A stretch of DNA of 64,000 bases from Thermococcus bergensis. GTDB lineage: Archaea; Methanobacteriota_B; Thermococci; Thermococcales; Thermococcaceae. A program made the position numbers and the translations under genes. Shown one piece after another: positions 518-7,767 of this stretch (its first letter is position 1; each line of letters opens with the position of its first letter). Where the stretch lies: NCBI RefSeq assembly GCF_020386975.1, contig NZ_JABFNK010000003.1, forward strand, positions 62,001-126,000. Direction: 5' to 3'. The notes below the pieces were generated by a model. That model was not told the origin of the DNA. It ran no database searches and saw nothing but the letters and a program-made list of their open reading frames with translations.

Positions 518-1270
518 TTATTTGAAATATTTGCCAAAACTACGGTGTAATAGGCTAATCCCTACTATCGAAAACACAACAAAAGATATCATTTCAGAAA
601 TAGGAATTTCTATCCCAAATAATATATTCCTAATTAAATCCGCACCAAATGAAATTGGATTAATTCTTGCTAATGTTTTGAGAACAGCTGGCATTAAGCT
701 TACCGGATAATATGCGGTACTTATAAATATCATCGGCAAAAGGAATAATGAAGTTAATGAGTTAAAGCTTTGTTCTTCCCTCAAACTTGCTGCAATCCCC
801 ATCATAAATATTCCTACCGCAAAACTGCTAGAAAAAATTGCTAAAAATAAAACTGGAATATTATCAATTGATAGATATAACTCAGAACATATTGTTAATT
901 TTGCAAGTAATAGGAACATTAATGCGTTAAAAGCTGAAAGTAATGAATGAATCAGTATTTTTACAAAAGGTACAAGCGATTTATTCATAGGAAGTGAAAG
1001 AAGGTCAAGTAAAGCGTGAGATTTTCGTTCTATAAATACTCTAGTAGCAGAGTTCAGTGATGAGTATATTACAACTAACATTATTATTCCGGGCAATATA
1101 TAATTTAAATAAGATACCCCATTTATGGATGGCATGCCCTTATTCAGAGTATATCCAAAAACAAAAAGGTACATAAGAGGGGACAAAAAGGACGCTATCA
1201 TAAAACCTACACTTCTTTTGTAGCTTAGAAGTTCTCTTTCAATTAATATTAATGTTTGCCCCAACATCAC
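518..1270 (-). CDS. ABC-2 type permease, probable peptide exporter subunit
   Basis: Membrane component of an ABC exporter, 250 residues. It is hydrophobic throughout with about six predicted membrane segments and an N-terminal MLGQTLILIERELLSYKR stretch, the usual start of ABC-2 permeases. The start codon overlaps the stop of the ATPase gene by four bases (1267-1270), so the two are translationally coupled. As last gene of a minus-strand operon encoding two radical SAM enzymes and a small peptide, it is likely to export the modified product or give self-resistance; that role is inferred. Its stop codon lies directly against an IS6-type element, so the C-terminus could have been altered by that insertion. 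Confidence 0.8.
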   Translation of the reverse strand: MMLGQTLILIERELLSYKRSVGFMIASFLSPLMYLFVFGYTLNKGMPSINGVSYLNYILPGIIMLVVIYSSLNSATRVFIERKSHALLDLLSLPMNKSLVPFVKILIHSLLSAFNALMFLLLAKLTICSELYLSIDNIPVLFLAIFSSSFAVGIFMMGIAASLREEQSFNSLTSLFLLPMIFISTAYYPVSLMPAVLKTLARINPISFGADLIRNILFGIEIPISEMISFVVFSIVGISLLHRSFGKYFK

Positions 1271-2193
1271 TTTTCTCCCTCCACCAATTCTACAAATATT
1301 TCATTCAAATCCTTTCCAGCATATCCTATTTCCTCTACTATACATTCTTCAAATAGAGATGCTAGTTCAGAGATTTTATATTGTGTGGGCGTCTCAAAAT
1401 AAATTTCATTATTCTCCACTCTTGTCACGTTAAATCCAAGAACTTTGACCTTTTGAAGGAATTGTTTAGGAAAACCACACTTAATTCTATACAGCCGATC
1501 TATTCTGAAGTTACTCTTTAGATCAGATAACGCCCCATCAAAAATAATTTTTCCATTTTTTATAAAAATTATTTTATCACATAAATTTTCAACATCTTCC
1601 ATATTATGAGTAGTGAGTATAATCGTCTTCCCATCCTCTTTTAGCGTCTTTATTATATTCCAAAGTTTTAGTTTAAAACTTGGATCACTTCCAGCAGTAG
1701 GCTCGTCTAAGATGATAAGCCTCGTACTTTCTGTTACACTAGCAAGACATCTTGCCACTTGAACTTTCTTTGCTAGACCTGGGCTTAGCTCCAAGAACAA
1801 TTTTCTTCTATGTTCCTCAAGATTGAATGACTTAATATATTCTTCAGTTTTTATCTTTGCTCTTTTTTTAGGTATCCCCCTAAGACGTTGGTATAGATAA
1901 ATATTTTCTTCAACAGTTAAAAAGGGATCTCCCGTAGCTTCTTGATGAGCAACAGCAATAAGTTGCTTAGCTTCAGTACTCTTTTTCAATACATTCATTC
2001 CAAATATTTTAACGTATCCGCTCCAGGGTTTTAGAATTCCTAATAATGTCAATATTGTTGTAGTTTTACCTGCACCATTGGGACCCAAATACCCAACTAT
2101 TGTACCCTCGTCTATATTGAAACTTATCCCCTTTAGAATCTCTGTCTTTTTGTACCCTACTACTAAATTAGAGACTTCTACAGCAGCGTTCAT
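1267..2193 (-). CDS. ABC transporter ATP-binding protein
   Basis: Cytoplasmic ATPase of the exporter, 308 residues. Visible motifs are Walker A GPNGAGKTTT, the Q-loop region AVAHQEATG, Walker B LIILDEPTAGSD and the switch histidine in TTHNME. The signature motif reads LSPGLAKKVQ instead of the usual LSGGQ, a mild deviation also seen in some ABC-2 export ATPases. The C-terminal 80 residues form the accessory domain typical of drug or bacteriocin exporters. It overlaps the upstream radical SAM gene by ATGA (2190-2193) and the permease gene by four bases, indicating one transcript. Confidence 0.85.
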   Translation of the reverse strand: MNAAVEVSNLVVGYKKTEILKGISFNIDEGTIVGYLGPNGAGKTTTILTLLGILKPWSGYVKIFGMNVLKKSTEAKQLIAVAHQEATGDPFLTVEENIYLYQRLRGIPKKRAKIKTEEYIKSFNLEEHRRKLFLELSPGLAKKVQVARCLASVTESTRLIILDEPTAGSDPSFKLKLWNIIKTLKEDGKTIILTTHNMEDVENLCDKIIFIKNGKIIFDGALSDLKSNFRIDRLYRIKCGFPKQFLQKVKVLGFNVTRVENNEIYFETPTQYKISELASLFEECIVEEIGYAGKDLNEIFVELVEGEK

Positions 2194-3554
2194 AAATTAT
2201 CACCTATCCGGATCTTTAAAAATTCCAGTGTAAGATCTTTATATAATTCTAAAATTTCTTTAGTAATATAAGAGCACGTTCTGTTGCGCAATTTCTCATC
2301 TCTTAATAATCTCAATGCAGTACACCCCCCTCCACAAAGTAGTGCATATGAACATTCTTTACAAGGCAGAGTTAATATACAGGTTTCTCTCCATTTTTTA
2401 AATGAATCATAAAATTGCAAATTTGGAATAAATTTCCCAACAGAAAATTCCTTTATGCCTACTACCACATCACAAGGATATATATCGCCATATAGATCGA
2501 AAACATATTGGTTTATATTAGCTTCACAATGTCTAAATTTGGGGAAGTATACGTTATTTTTATTGATTAAGTAATTTAATGACATTGCAAATGAATGGCC
2601 AGTAATTATTACCTCTTTAATCATCGAGGGGAAGTTCCTAACAAGGTACAATAGAGATTCCAATTCATTTTTTATACCTTCGGTTAATAAAGATTGATCA
2701 AGGTAGTTATACACTGACATAACATACAAGTGAACGTTTTTTCTCTTGAGAATACCAATCTCTTTTAAATAACAGTATAAATTATACACTGAGTTCTCTT
2801 TTCCTCGATGAACATGAATTCTTAACGCTATATGTGTCTTAGTGCTTATCTCATCAAGTAGAGAGCATAGATTATTTATTATAATATCAAAAGTCCCCTT
2901 TCCATTTGGGAATATTCTATATTTATCATGAGTGCTCTTATCTCCATCAAATGTAATCTGAATTGAATTAAATTCTTTAAGTAATGAAAGATAATGTGGT
3001 ATTCCAACACCATTACTTACAACATTAAGAGCTAAATTTTGTTCTCTGCTTTCTTTTACTATTTGAGCAATAATATCAAATTCTCTTTTAATTGGAAGTA
3101 GTGGTTCACCCCCGAATATTGTTAATATAGACTTTACATTTGATTTCTTTGCAGCTTCTATTAGGTTTATTGCATGAAATAATTTCGATAAAGCTTTTTC
3201 AGAAATAAATTCAGGATCTTTTTTGATGCCCTTTTCATAGCAATATGTACACGTTAAATTACAATAATATGTTGGGATTACCATATAATGAAGTGGTAAT
3301 GATTTCTCCTTTCTTATGAAATCTAAATATGCTCTCTCAACGTCTTTATTAAACTCATCTTCCGAACGGTATAACAACTTATTTTTTAACAAATCATGTA
3401 TAGTATCACTACAACTTGAGTTTTCAGGATTGAGTAGATAATAGTATTCATTTCTCTTTAGCTTGTATATCTTGCCATGTAACGTATCCAATATAATGTA
3501 ATTCCCTTCCTCTACGGGAATCTGAACCAAGTACTTATTAGTCTTCATAGCCAT
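2190..3554 (-). CDS. radical SAM/SPASM peptide maturase
   Basis: A 454-residue radical SAM enzyme of the peptide- or protein-modifying SPASM group. Residues 1-90 form an N-terminal domain (KYLVQIPVEEGNYIILD...) resembling the peptide-binding region of such maturases. The SAM-cluster motif is C98-x3-C102-x2-C105 (CNLTCTYC), followed by a GGEPLL motif. The C-terminal part has a SPASM-type set of cysteines: CDVV, then CKEC, LLCGGGC and a final C, which hold auxiliary Fe-S clusters. Known relatives form thioether or C-C cross-links on ribosomal peptides. Its start overlaps the stop of the B12 radical SAM gene by one base and its stop overlaps the ATPase start, so it is coupled to both. Substrate is inferred to be the 35-residue peptide encoded at 6658-6765. 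Confidence 0.85.
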   Translation of the reverse strand: MAMKTNKYLVQIPVEEGNYIILDTLHGKIYKLKRNEYYYLLNPENSSCSDTIHDLLKNKLLYRSEDEFNKDVERAYLDFIRKEKSLPLHYMVIPTYYCNLTCTYCYEKGIKKDPEFISEKALSKLFHAINLIEAAKKSNVKSILTIFGGEPLLPIKREFDIIAQIVKESREQNLALNVVSNGVGIPHYLSLLKEFNSIQITFDGDKSTHDKYRIFPNGKGTFDIIINNLCSLLDEISTKTHIALRIHVHRGKENSVYNLYCYLKEIGILKRKNVHLYVMSVYNYLDQSLLTEGIKNELESLLYLVRNFPSMIKEVIITGHSFAMSLNYLINKNNVYFPKFRHCEANINQYVFDLYGDIYPCDVVVGIKEFSVGKFIPNLQFYDSFKKWRETCILTLPCKECSYALLCGGGCTALRLLRDEKLRNRTCSYITKEILELYKDLTLEFLKIRIGDNL

Positions 3555-4768
3555 TACCCCATAAGCTTGTAATAGTTATCTATGAAATTCAGTTTTTCTT
3601 GCAAATTGGGAGTATTGAACCAATAAAACGAGACGTATATTGGAGGATGTTTTAAAATTTCCTCAACAATTTCTTGAGGTAAGTCTTGAGTTGATAATAT
3701 AGTGTGCGAATATATGTTAAAGTATAATGGTTTTATTATGTCGTTCTCATATTTTTTCCGCAGTTCTGACATTGGTAAAGGTGCTAATCGTGAAAATCTA
3801 GTTTGTACCCCAAAATAATCCAAATATGTTATTGCATAAAAAGTTTTCAGGAAATCCTCGAAGTCTTCAAATGGATATCCCCAAATGAATGAAGCAGTAA
3901 CATTTTTAATATAATCTAACGAGTTTATTACTACCTCTATAGCTTTGCCTATTGTAAAACCTTTATTTATTAAACGTAATATCCTATTACTCCCTGATTC
4001 AATACCATAAAATATCCCCTTACATCCAGAATCCATCAATGAAGTAAGAACATTATTATCTACTAAGTTTACTCTACCGAAGCAGGCATATTGTATGTCC
4101 AAGTCTGATTTCTGTATTTGCTCAGTAATTGAAAGAACTCTTTGTTTATTCAATGTAAATGTATCATCCGTAAAATGAATGTTCTTTACCCCATAATTTT
4201 CATTCAATAGTTTTAACTCCTCAATAACCCTTGAAACTCCTTTATAGATAACTTTCCGACCCCATAAGGGAGCCACATCACAAAAAGTGCATCTAAATGG
4301 ACATCCACGAGATGTGTCTACAGTGACTTGATAATATTTTTTAAGGTTTATAAGATGATAAGCTGGAAATGGCAAAGCATCTAAGTCCTGAATCCTTTCT
4401 CTTTTTGGGGTTACTATAACCCTATCTCCATGCTTAAATGCAATCCCTTTTATATTAAGCAAATCCCTAGGAGTATATGAAATACCATTTCCTATAGTCC
4501 TCATTAACTCAAGTAGAGTGTATTCCCCTTCTCCAATACAGACGATATCTACACTGTCGTATGTGCTAAGCAGATTGTAACACACCTCTGATGGACCAGG
4601 CCCCCCAAGTATTATAATCTTTTCTGGAGTAATAGATTTTGCATATTTGGTAGCTAGCATGACCCATGGCAGTGAGTCCGTCATACATCCAATACCAACT
4701 ATCTTCGAGTCAATGTTAGCTATAGTCTCACCAAGATGTTTATACCCCCATTTGTGTTTATAAAAAAT

Positions 4769-5700
4769 ACCCTAGTTCCCACCACCTGTGAAGTTGTATA
4801 ATCTGTCCAGATTCACGGCCAGAATCGCCCCTAAAATCCTGACAGCTAACCCCCTCAAACTAACACTCCTGCTCGGCCTCAGAAGAAACTCAGAAAACTT
4901 CGAAAACAAAGTCTCAATCCTCCTGCGAAAGTCAGACAAGTACTTGTAAAACTTCTTCTCCTCCAGATTACTAACCTGATTCTCCCGCTTCACCGGCGTG
5001 TAAACAACGCCAAACTTCAGGAATTCCTCCTGAAGTTCTCTACTAACGTAACCCTTATCCAAAAACAGAAAACAGCCAGAAAACTCCTCAACAATCACCC
5101 AGAACTTTTCCCTGACAACACTCACATCATGCTTATTCGCCGGATCAACGGACAGCAAAGCCAGCAAATTTCCATCAGAGTAACAGGTCAGCTTGTACCC
5201 ATAGTAAAACTTTTTTTAGAGGGAACAAACCCAACTGCGGGCTTTTCAGAGATGACTTCTGAAGAACCCTCCTTATCCTTCCTGTTTTTTCTGGCCAACT
5301 CCTTGGTCTGAATGGGCTTTGAGTCCAGTATTCTAACGTATTCTCTGGCGTGTTTTTTGAATAATTCTTCCTGCGCTAGGAGCAGGAGTTTTTCGTGCCT
5401 GTTCAAGCGTTCTGTTAGTTTGTTGTACCTGATTTTGGGGAACAGCTTCATTTCTTCGATTAGGACTCTGTAAGCGTGCTTGTAAACTCCGTTAAAGTGC
5501 AAGTGTGCTAGTATTGCGAAGGTTATTAGGTCGTAGAGGCTGATTATTTCCCTGTGAGTGTTTTTCGGGTAGTGTTTGCTGATTATCGGATAGATTTCGG
5601 ATTTTATGATCAGGATTTCCTGCTGAAAGTTCATAACAACCACCAATCAACCAAAAGACTTAAGTGCTTATAACTCTAACGATCTAATGGGAACTAGGGT
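4769..5700 (-). mobile_element. IS982-family element, copy A
   Basis: A 932-bp element bounded by perfect terminal repeats beginning ACCCTAGTTCCCA, inserted in minus orientation. It is flanked by the 7-bp direct repeat AAAAAAT (4762-4768 and 5701-5707), so it arrived by its own transposition. It splits the B12 radical SAM gene. Its proteins are identical to those of copies B and C. Confidence 0.95.
4772..5634 (-). CDS. IS982-family transposase, two frames (copy A)
   Basis: DDE transposase encoded in two overlapping frames: the first ends with SKKSFTMGTS, the second continues as KKFYYGYKLTCYSDGN. A run of seven T on the plus strand (A7 in the gene, 5211-5217) lies where a -1 shift joins them into one 287-residue protein, the family's usual size. 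Likely catalytic residues are D in ILDSKP, D in FLFLDKGY and E in RRIETLFSKF. ATG 5634 is preferred to GTG 5646 because GGTGG lies five bases before it. Confidence 0.85.
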
Positions 5701-5839
5701 AAAAAATATATTGGTAATCAATAACATCAACATCAAAATTATATTTCTCAAGAGTACCAGCCAGATATAAAATTCCAAGCGGAGTTTGAGGTTTAGACGA
5801 TGATGAAACTACATTTATTAAAGTAATATCGGGCATTTG

Positions 5840-6613
5840 CTAAACCTCCTGCTTATTATTCTTTAAAAAGTTGAGATATTTCAAAGCTTGTTTATCAGCA
5901 GGATTGAGTTTCAAAGCATAATGGAGGTATTTGTGAGCTGTATCTAATTTATTATCCTTTAGGTATATTATTCCTAAGAGAACATAAGATTTTGAGTAGT
6001 TTGGACTTAGAGCTATTGACTTTTTCAAATATGTTATAGCGCTATTGTAGTCCTCAAGGGAATAATAGGATAATGCAATTAAGTATAATAATTTAGCCCG
6101 AATAAAATCTGAAGTAGGAGGTAACGAGGACAAAGCCTTGAGATAAGACGCAATAGCCTTTTCATATTGTCCTATGTAAGATTCTAAATTACCTAGTTCA
6201 AAATAAAGTTTCCATACACTATCCTTATATTTAGCTAAATACATAGAAGATTGAAAAACTTCTTGGAGTTGCTTCTTAAAAGCTATAGCTTCACTTATTT
6301 TGTTGTGCAATATTAGGATTCTGAGATATTTAGCAAAGAGAAATGGTGGAATATCATGTTTTATATATTCCTTAAAAACTCTGTTTAGAAGTAGATTACA
6401 TTTCTCAAAATCTTTTTGTAGAATATAGACATTAAGTAATTTATTAATTACTTTTAAATTTTTTGGATCTTTTTCAAACAACATTTTAAGGTATCTTTCT
6501 CCTTTCTCTACATCACCCAGACATAATAATAAATATCCTTTGCAATATATATCCCCATCAACGTCTTTTTTTGGTATATCATCTCCCAACTTATCTAGGT
6601 ACCCTTTAATCAC
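5840..6613 (-). CDS. TPR repeat protein of the peptide cluster
   Basis: A 257-residue soluble protein made of tetratricopeptide repeats. The clearest units are GQYEKAIASYLKALSSLPP, LEDYNSAITYLKKSIALSP and DNKLDTAHKYLHYALKLNP, in the last 120 residues; the N-terminal half is more divergent. It starts with GTG at 6613 with GGAGGGG seven bases upstream. It lies between the small peptide gene and the B12 radical SAM gene and its stop is three bases from the ATG of the latter. TPR proteins usually bind peptides or partner proteins, so a scaffold that presents the peptide to the two radical SAM enzymes is a reasonable guess. No enzyme motif is seen. Confidence 0.8.
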   Translation of the reverse strand: MIKGYLDKLGDDIPKKDVDGDIYCKGYLLLCLGDVEKGERYLKMLFEKDPKNLKVINKLLNVYILQKDFEKCNLLLNRVFKEYIKHDIPPFLFAKYLRILILHNKISEAIAFKKQLQEVFQSSMYLAKYKDSVWKLYFELGNLESYIGQYEKAIASYLKALSSLPPTSDFIRAKLLYLIALSYYSLEDYNSAITYLKKSIALSPNYSKSYVLLGIIYLKDNKLDTAHKYLHYALKLNPADKQALKYLNFLKNNKQEV

Positions 6614-6635
6614 TTTTTGCCCCCTCCAAGTGAAG

Positions 6636-6656
6636 TTAAAAAATAAAATAATAAAA
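6636..6656 (-). terminator. T-rich tract after the peptide gene
   Basis: On the coding strand the 20 bases after the peptide stop codon are almost all T and A with several T runs. Archaeal RNA polymerase terminates at such T tracts, so this may be a partial terminator that makes the peptide transcript more abundant than the downstream enzyme transcript. Confidence 0.35.
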
Positions 6657-6657
6657 T

Positions 6658-6765
6658 TCAGTCAGAATCTGTACTTATAAATGCCCAAACTTGGAGACAA
6701 CACGTCAATAATGTGGCGTCGTTTAAAGTTTCTGTAATGGCAGATTTGACATCAAACTCTTCCAA
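6658..6765 (-). CDS. 35-residue peptide, candidate RiPP precursor
   Basis: A small gene with a TTG start at 6765. The ribosome binding site GGAGGTGAT (6779-6771) exactly matches the archaeal 16S 3' end and ends five bases before the TTG; an in-frame TAA lies just upstream, so no earlier start is possible. The N-terminal half is acidic and helical-looking, like a leader. The C-terminal half is TLLTCCLQVWAFISTDSD, with adjacent cysteines C22-C23, a single W and F, and a polar end. It is the first gene of the operon encoding TPR, B12 radical SAM, radical SAM/SPASM and ABC export proteins. Size, strength of the binding site, position and the CC pair fit a ribosomal peptide precursor modified at cysteine. 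No homologue is known to me; the role is inferred from context. Confidence 0.7.
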   Translation of the reverse strand: MEEFDVKSAITETLNDATLLTCCLQVWAFISTDSD

Positions 6766-6810
6766 CTCTTATCACCTCCGAAAATTTTACATACTCAATA
6801 AGTTGTTTTT

Positions 6811-6827
6811 ATATTTAAAATTTTCTT
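6811..6827 (-). promoter_or_regulatory. promoter of the peptide operon (BRE/TATA)
   Basis: On the minus strand AAGAAAA (6827-6821) followed by TTTTAAATAT (6820-6811) forms a BRE/TATA pair. It would place the transcript start near 6790, about 25 bases before the TTG start of the peptide gene. IS982 copy B begins at 6828, directly against it, and its target duplication contains the BRE, so the core promoter survives but any upstream operator has been moved 932 bp away. Confidence 0.6.
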
Positions 6828-7759
6828 ACCCTAGTTCCCATTAGATCGTTAGAGTTATAAGCACTTAAGTCTTTTGGTTGATTGGTGGTTGTTATGAACT
6901 TTCAGCAGGAAATCCTGATCATAAAATCCGAAATCTATCCGATAATCAGCAAACACTACCCGAAAAACACTCACAGGGAAATAATCAGCCTCTACGACCT
7001 AATAACCTTCGCAATACTAGCACACTTGCACTTTAACGGAGTTTACAAGCACGCTTACAGAGTCCTAATCGAAGAAATGAAGCTGTTCCCCAAAATCAGG
7101 TACAACAAACTAACAGAACGCTTGAACAGGCACGAAAAACTCCTGCTCCTAGCGCAGGAAGAATTATTCAAAAAACACGCCAGAGAATACGTTAGAATAC
7201 TGGACTCAAAGCCCATTCAGACCAAGGAGTTGGCCAGAAAAAACAGGAAGGATAAGGAGGGTTCTTCAGAAGTCATCTCTGAAAAGCCCGCAGTTGGGTT
7301 TGTTCCCTCTAAAAAAAGTTTTACTATGGGTACAAGCTGACCTGTTACTCTGATGGAAATTTGCTGGCTTTGCTGTCCGTTGATCCGGCGAATAAGCATG
7401 ATGTGAGTGTTGTCAGGGAAAAGTTCTGGGTGATTGTTGAGGAGTTTTCTGGCTGTTTTCTGTTTTTGGATAAGGGTTACGTTAGTAGAGAACTTCAGGA
7501 GGAATTCCTGAAGTTTGGCGTTGTTTACACGCCGGTGAAGCGGGAGAATCAGGTTAGTAATCTGGAGGAGAAGAAGTTTTACAAGTACTTGTCTGACTTT
7601 CGCAGGAGGATTGAGACTTTGTTTTCGAAGTTTTCTGAGTTTCTTCTGAGGCCGAGCAGGAGTGTTAGTTTGAGGGGGTTAGCTGTCAGGATTTTAGGGG
7701 CGATTCTGGCCGTGAATCTGGACAGATTATACAACTTCACAGGTGGTGGGAACTAGGGT
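6828..7759 (+). mobile_element. IS982-family element, copy B
   Basis: A 932-bp element with ACCCTAGTTCCCA ends, in plus orientation, flanked by the 8-bp repeat ATTTTCTT (6820-6827 and 7760-7767). It separates the peptide operon's core promoter from the 190-bp region next to the ribosomal operon. Copies A and B lie inverted on either side of the peptide and TPR genes, but each has its own target duplication. Confidence 0.95.
6894..7756 (+). CDS. IS982-family transposase, two frames (copy B)
   Basis: Same two-frame transposase as copy A, identical at protein level. The seven-A run is at 7311-7317; the first frame ends at 7340 and the second covers the C-terminal 140 residues with the catalytic glutamate in RRIETLFSKF. 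The stop codon lies inside the right terminal repeat (CTAG). Confidence 0.85.
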
Positions 7760-7767
7760 ATTTTCTT

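Follow-up and report, generated by a model that had tools for sequence, protein, structure and literature searches.

A gene of 35 codons, beginning with TTG and at present unannotated, stands at the head of a set of enzyme genes in Thermococcus bergensis and probably encodes the precursor of a RiPP modified by radical SAM enzymes. We put the chance of this reading, with the processing and export proposed below, at about three in four. So far as sequence can tell, the gene set has the anatomy of a RiPP cluster: on the minus strand the peptide is followed by a TPR solenoid protein, a B12-binding radical SAM enzyme, a SPASM radical SAM enzyme, and the ATPase and permease of an ABC transporter (Table 1), and the 35-codon open reading frame (ORF) is the sole credible precursor there. 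As is general for RiPP clusters, a short candidate precursor gene adjoins the genes of modifying enzymes. The ORF is best called a candidate precursor in a gene set that is new in combining TPR, B12-radical SAM, CteB-like SPASM, and ABC genes. It is favored by a strong leadered ribosome binding site (RBS), a single start, and its position as first gene of a compact operon. It also illustrates how a gene finder with a length limit could overlook so short a TTG gene. (The window, below, is the whole 64-kb stretch of DNA that was analysed.)

Table 1. Features of the candidate RiPP cluster and its surroundings, in window coordinates
Feature	Position	Strand	Remarks
35-codon TTG gene, candidate RiPP precursor	6658..6765	minus	35 aa, MEEFDVKSAITETLNDATLLTCCLQVWAFISTDSD
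Ribosome binding site GGAGGTGAT	6771..6779	minus	9 contiguous pairs with the genome's own 16S tail
Archaeal BRE/TATA-like promoter (AAGAAAATTTTAAATATAAAA)	6806..6826	minus	kept at the IS junction; read from sequence, promoter role putative
T-rich stretch (TTTTATTATTTTATTTTTTAAC)	6630..6655	minus	possible leaky terminator between precursor and enzyme genes; function putative
TPR protein	5840..6613	minus	257 aa, GTG start, all-helical solenoid
B12-binding radical SAM gene, 5' part	5702..5836	minus	first ~46 codons, start 5836; upstream of IS copy
B12-binding radical SAM gene, remainder	3554..4767	minus	ApyD-like
SPASM radical SAM enzyme	2190..3554	minus	454 aa, CteB-like fold, N-terminal beta3-alpha3 (RRE-like) domain
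ABC transporter ATPase	1267..2193	minus	DrrA-like
ABC-2 permease	518..1270	minus	DrrB-like
IS copy	4768..5701		DDE transposase with ORF in two frames; interrupts B12-radical SAM gene after codon ~46
Second IS copy	6827..7760		100% identical, inverted; abuts promoter of 35-codon gene

The ORF runs from TTG at 6765-6763 to TGA at 6660-6658, and an in-frame TAA (6771-6769) lies two codons 5' of the start, just as the original prediction had placed the gene, its start and the block to earlier starts. The same prediction held that the RBS matches the 16S tail completely. The genome's own 16S rRNA ends in ...CTCGATCACCTCCT (its tail given also as GATCACCTCCT), and GGAGGTGAT forms nine contiguous pairs with it, though the bases flanking the nine are unpaired. 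The site is a strong one: at -16.4 kcal/mol, its duplex exceeds those of the other five operon genes (-6.1 to -11.2) and that of rpl14e (-14.1), and none of 276 sampled background start sites matches it.

Might the ORF nonetheless have arisen by chance, with an RBS that is itself accidental or a relict, the enzymes having their true substrate elsewhere in the genome, or one that is not a peptide? Codon statistics are uninformative, as they do not separate the ORF from random, and the only copies found are three identical ones. However, of the two occurrences of GGAGGTGAT in the window, the one at 6779-6771 alone lies at RBS distance from a start codon that opens an ORF of at least 30 aa, a combination expected by chance in 0.03 cases per window (from dinucleotide shuffles). 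Given also the absence of so strong a site among the 276 background starts, and a position exactly at the head of the operon behind a promoter-like sequence, a chance origin is improbable.

The peptide carries the predicted CC pair, at residues 22-23. It had been said to resemble neither transposon nor ribosomal proteins, and searches of Pfam, NCBIfam, and PADLOC with it matched no family. An Rfam search of the window found no RNA family.

A gap of 44 nt, which includes the T-rich stretch, separates the ORF from the TPR gene. A leaky terminator after the precursor gene is one of the usual routes to more precursor than enzyme. The proposal of a peptide precursor made in excess has two parts: the precursor idea fits the content of the operon, and excess is plausible from the strength of the RBS and the terminator-like T-rich stretch. 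Or perhaps the ORF is a regulatory leader (uORF): translating it would govern whether transcription continues beyond the T-rich stretch, or how well the TPR gene is translated, and the peptide itself would have no function. The strong RBS and the T-rich gap ahead of the TPR gene would suit such a leader. But the TPR gene has an RBS of its own (-9.8 kcal/mol), an operon of radical SAM maturases would be left without a precursor, and the peptide, with its leader and hydrophobic Cys-bearing tail, resembles one. A uORF therefore seems unlikely.

The genes that follow bear out the claim that the ORF stands at the head of an enzyme operon, preceding the TPR, B12-radical SAM, SPASM radical SAM, and ABC genes. 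In a related genome (G080, contig L044), where the operon is uninterrupted, the genes from TPR to permease are spaced by no more than 3 nt or overlap by 4 nt at most, which fits a single transcription unit. The operon and the gaps flanking it contain no second credible small ORF, and the operon contains no peptidase gene.

Both radical SAM enzymes have RiPP maturases among their nearest described relatives. The top NCBIfam matches of the SPASM enzyme are RiPP maturases (CefB, PapB, TIGR04463, geopeptide, nif11, DynA, and SCIFF), all below cut-off: 84 bits against 425 for SCIFF/CteB, 130 against 600 for CefB, and 114 against 340 for PapB. Its radical SAM and SPASM cysteines are invariant in 24 relatives. 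The AlphaFold model (pLDDT 82) finds CteB as the closest PDB fold (5WHY, E 1.7e-18; 18-19% identity over the fold alignment), with SuiB, anSME, and TigE next and ChlB also among the matches. The N-terminus of the model is a predicted, RRE-like beta3-alpha3 unit; it has no PqqD match in Pfam, and profile comparison with a PqqD pair gave no support for an RRE. Sequence and model together mark the SPASM enzyme as resembling maturases that are known to act on peptides. The B12 enzyme (P0006) has ApyD as its best NCBIfam family (175 bits against a cut-off of 750) but is shorter, with 447 aa to the 645 positions of the ApyD model; the C-terminal third is missing. ApyD is a RiPP Tyr beta-methyltransferase that acts on the aminopyruvatide precursor (PMC10635010). 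The scores of the enzymes lie so far below the family cut-offs that their chemistry is not predicted. The similarity that PADLOC found to defence systems is only the generic similarity of radical SAM and ATPase proteins, and a defence system was rejected.

TPR solenoids bind peptides, and the TPR gene adjoins that of the peptide. One might therefore suppose that the TPR protein is a direct receptor for the peptide, which would act as a signal in the manner of Rap/RRNPP systems, with the radical SAM genes merely downstream. The TPR protein, however, is a solenoid throughout, consisting of TPR repeats with no DNA-binding or phosphatase domain to serve as output, the peptide has no evident signal sequence, and the operon continues with maturase genes. 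Such a signal is very unlikely.

If the 35-codon gene is instead the precursor of a modified peptide, the pathway might run as follows. The SPASM enzyme (through its RRE-like N-terminus), the TPR solenoid, or both would bind an acidic leader (about residues 1-21), leaving a core of about residues 22-35, CCLQVWAFISTDSD (the boundary is a guess). The SPASM enzyme may use radical chemistry to link Cys22/Cys23 or some other residue of the core, and the B12 enzyme may C-methylate or otherwise alter a core residue, for example W27 or F29. A protease encoded outside the operon would trim the leader, and the ABC pair would export the product or protect the producer.

How does the cluster compare with known systems? 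The ranthipeptide and sactipeptide systems (CteB/SCIFF, PapB, CefB, and geopeptide) likewise have a maturase with an RRE-like N-terminus (here a prediction from the model), radical SAM domain, and SPASM domain adjoining a short Cys-containing precursor. Here, in contrast, the precursor has a single CC pair in place of Cys arrays or CX3D repeats, and the genes for a B12-radical SAM enzyme and a TPR protein are extra. PapB uses a CX3D motif in its precursor; the CX3D/E motif of PapB-type ranthipeptides is absent from the 35-aa peptide, whose nearest Asp lies 10 residues downstream of the CC pair. In the aminopyruvatide cluster (ApyA/ApyD, PMC10635010), too, a RiPP precursor is accompanied by a B12-radical SAM enzyme, and both precursors end in Asp, but the operon described here has no gene for an MNIO, a P450, or a methyltransferase of the ApyS kind. 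The cluster falls outside each of the named RiPP families tried.

The nearest outside relatives of the B12 enzyme (33-41% identity) come from two genomes of the same class (G114 and G101); in a plasmid collection, the relatives are distant and confined to rhizobial plasmids, and none appear in a collection of viral contigs. Some of the 33-41% relatives belong to clusters that open with a peptide gene of 28 codons. Those clusters share with the present one a head peptide with a GGAGGTGA RBS, B12 enzymes of the same subfamily, a SPASM enzyme, and a transporter gene. They differ in having an unrelated precursor (MYAK..WLISLPAVPY), a separate PqqD, two B12 enzymes, an MFS transporter in place of ABC, and no TPR protein. 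The association of these relatives with peptide, SPASM, and PqqD genes gives independent support to the idea that the B12 subfamily works in RiPP pathways. In the clusters themselves (L082 9290-15774 and L081 3674-8026), a conserved 28-aa peptide, MYAKPxLEEITVRITADKWLISLPAxPY, and its GGAGGTGA RBS accompany SPASM, PqqD, two B12-radical SAM, and MFS genes, and an NCBIfam search with the peptide matched no family. A different kind of system is seen in L048 and L049 (G047, of the same family, and G074, of the same genus), where at least three SPASM radical SAM genes lie beside large, secreted-looking proteins.

To our knowledge, few archaeal RiPP products have been characterised; a literature search found none from Thermococcales and no paper on this cluster. 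A survey of archaeal RiPPs, focused on lanthipeptides, includes clusters of ranthipeptide and sactipeptide type in the classes that are abundant in archaea, and its main text makes no mention of Pyrococcus or Thermococcales (PMC12144867). The present cluster, from an order of hyperthermophiles, brings together a precursor without a family and two radical enzymes that only in part resemble those described. Unusual heat stability is to be expected of the enzymes and of the product, and the enzyme genes are intact in two related species. Perhaps the cluster represents a new RiPP class of hyperthermophilic archaea. In such a class the TPR solenoid would hand the precursor to SPASM and cobalamin radical SAM enzymes acting in sequence, yielding a crosslinked, C-methylated peptide (antimicrobial or signal) stable near 100 C, encoded by a cassette spreading between Pyrococcus-like species. 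This larger claim is tentative, and the odds lean against it.

The 35-aa peptide occurs in three of 94 Thermococcales genomes, all of one genus: that of the window (G000), G075, and G080. Weaker matches in seven others were discarded, since they fall within longer genes or on the strand opposite to them, or run across stop codons. A close SPASM enzyme is found in the same three genomes only; the next best among the 94 is 30% identical, and a scan of genome contigs with the enzyme gave relatives of about 26-33% identity and none closer. The DNA of the operon is 100% identical in all three, and since the copies do not differ, dN/dS of the ORF is undefined and no test of selection is possible.

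The operon forms an island between rpl14e and cbf5. The tract of 100% identity (L044 7238-13300 against the window and L043) begins at the end of rpl14e and spans the operon; between G075 and G080 it reaches into cbf5 as well. Outside the operon, identity falls to about 93% on the rpl14e side (G000 against G080) and to about 88% in cbf5 (G075 against G080). This contrast, and the fact that rpl14e directly precedes cbf5 in several other genomes of the genus, indicate that the island passed recently between species, presumably by recombination in the neighboring genes.

In the window genome the cluster is damaged. Both IS copies are absent from G075 and G080, where the B12-radical SAM gene and the other enzyme genes are intact. 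In the window, one copy splits the B12-radical SAM gene, so the pathway there is probably dead or incomplete; with the full pathway probably not operating, a partly modified peptide would be made at best, and a mature product is doubtful. The original prediction had overlooked these insertions. Beside the second copy, the BRE/TATA sequence is still in place because of the target duplication. The two inverted copies could in principle form a composite transposon that moves the peptide and TPR segment, but this reading was rejected. The operon occurs without them in G075 and G080, and in G080 it can be seen to occupy the same site. Moreover, each copy came with a target duplication of its own, and one end of the intervening segment falls within a gene. 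These points argue for two independent later insertions.

In the window, an IS6-family element borders the operon at its downstream end. In both IS copies the transposase occupies two frames (152 + 131 aa), and a pattern of short matches suggests that the window has more such copies, around 34.4-35.3 kb and 61.2-62.1 kb. In G075, another repeated IS-like element lies at nearly the same site upstream of the promoter (L043, ~141), where the assembly splits into two contigs. The element at 6827 of the window and that of G075 are different IS-like elements, and the two species acquired them independently, at sites no more than about 10 bp apart and immediately upstream of one and the same promoter.
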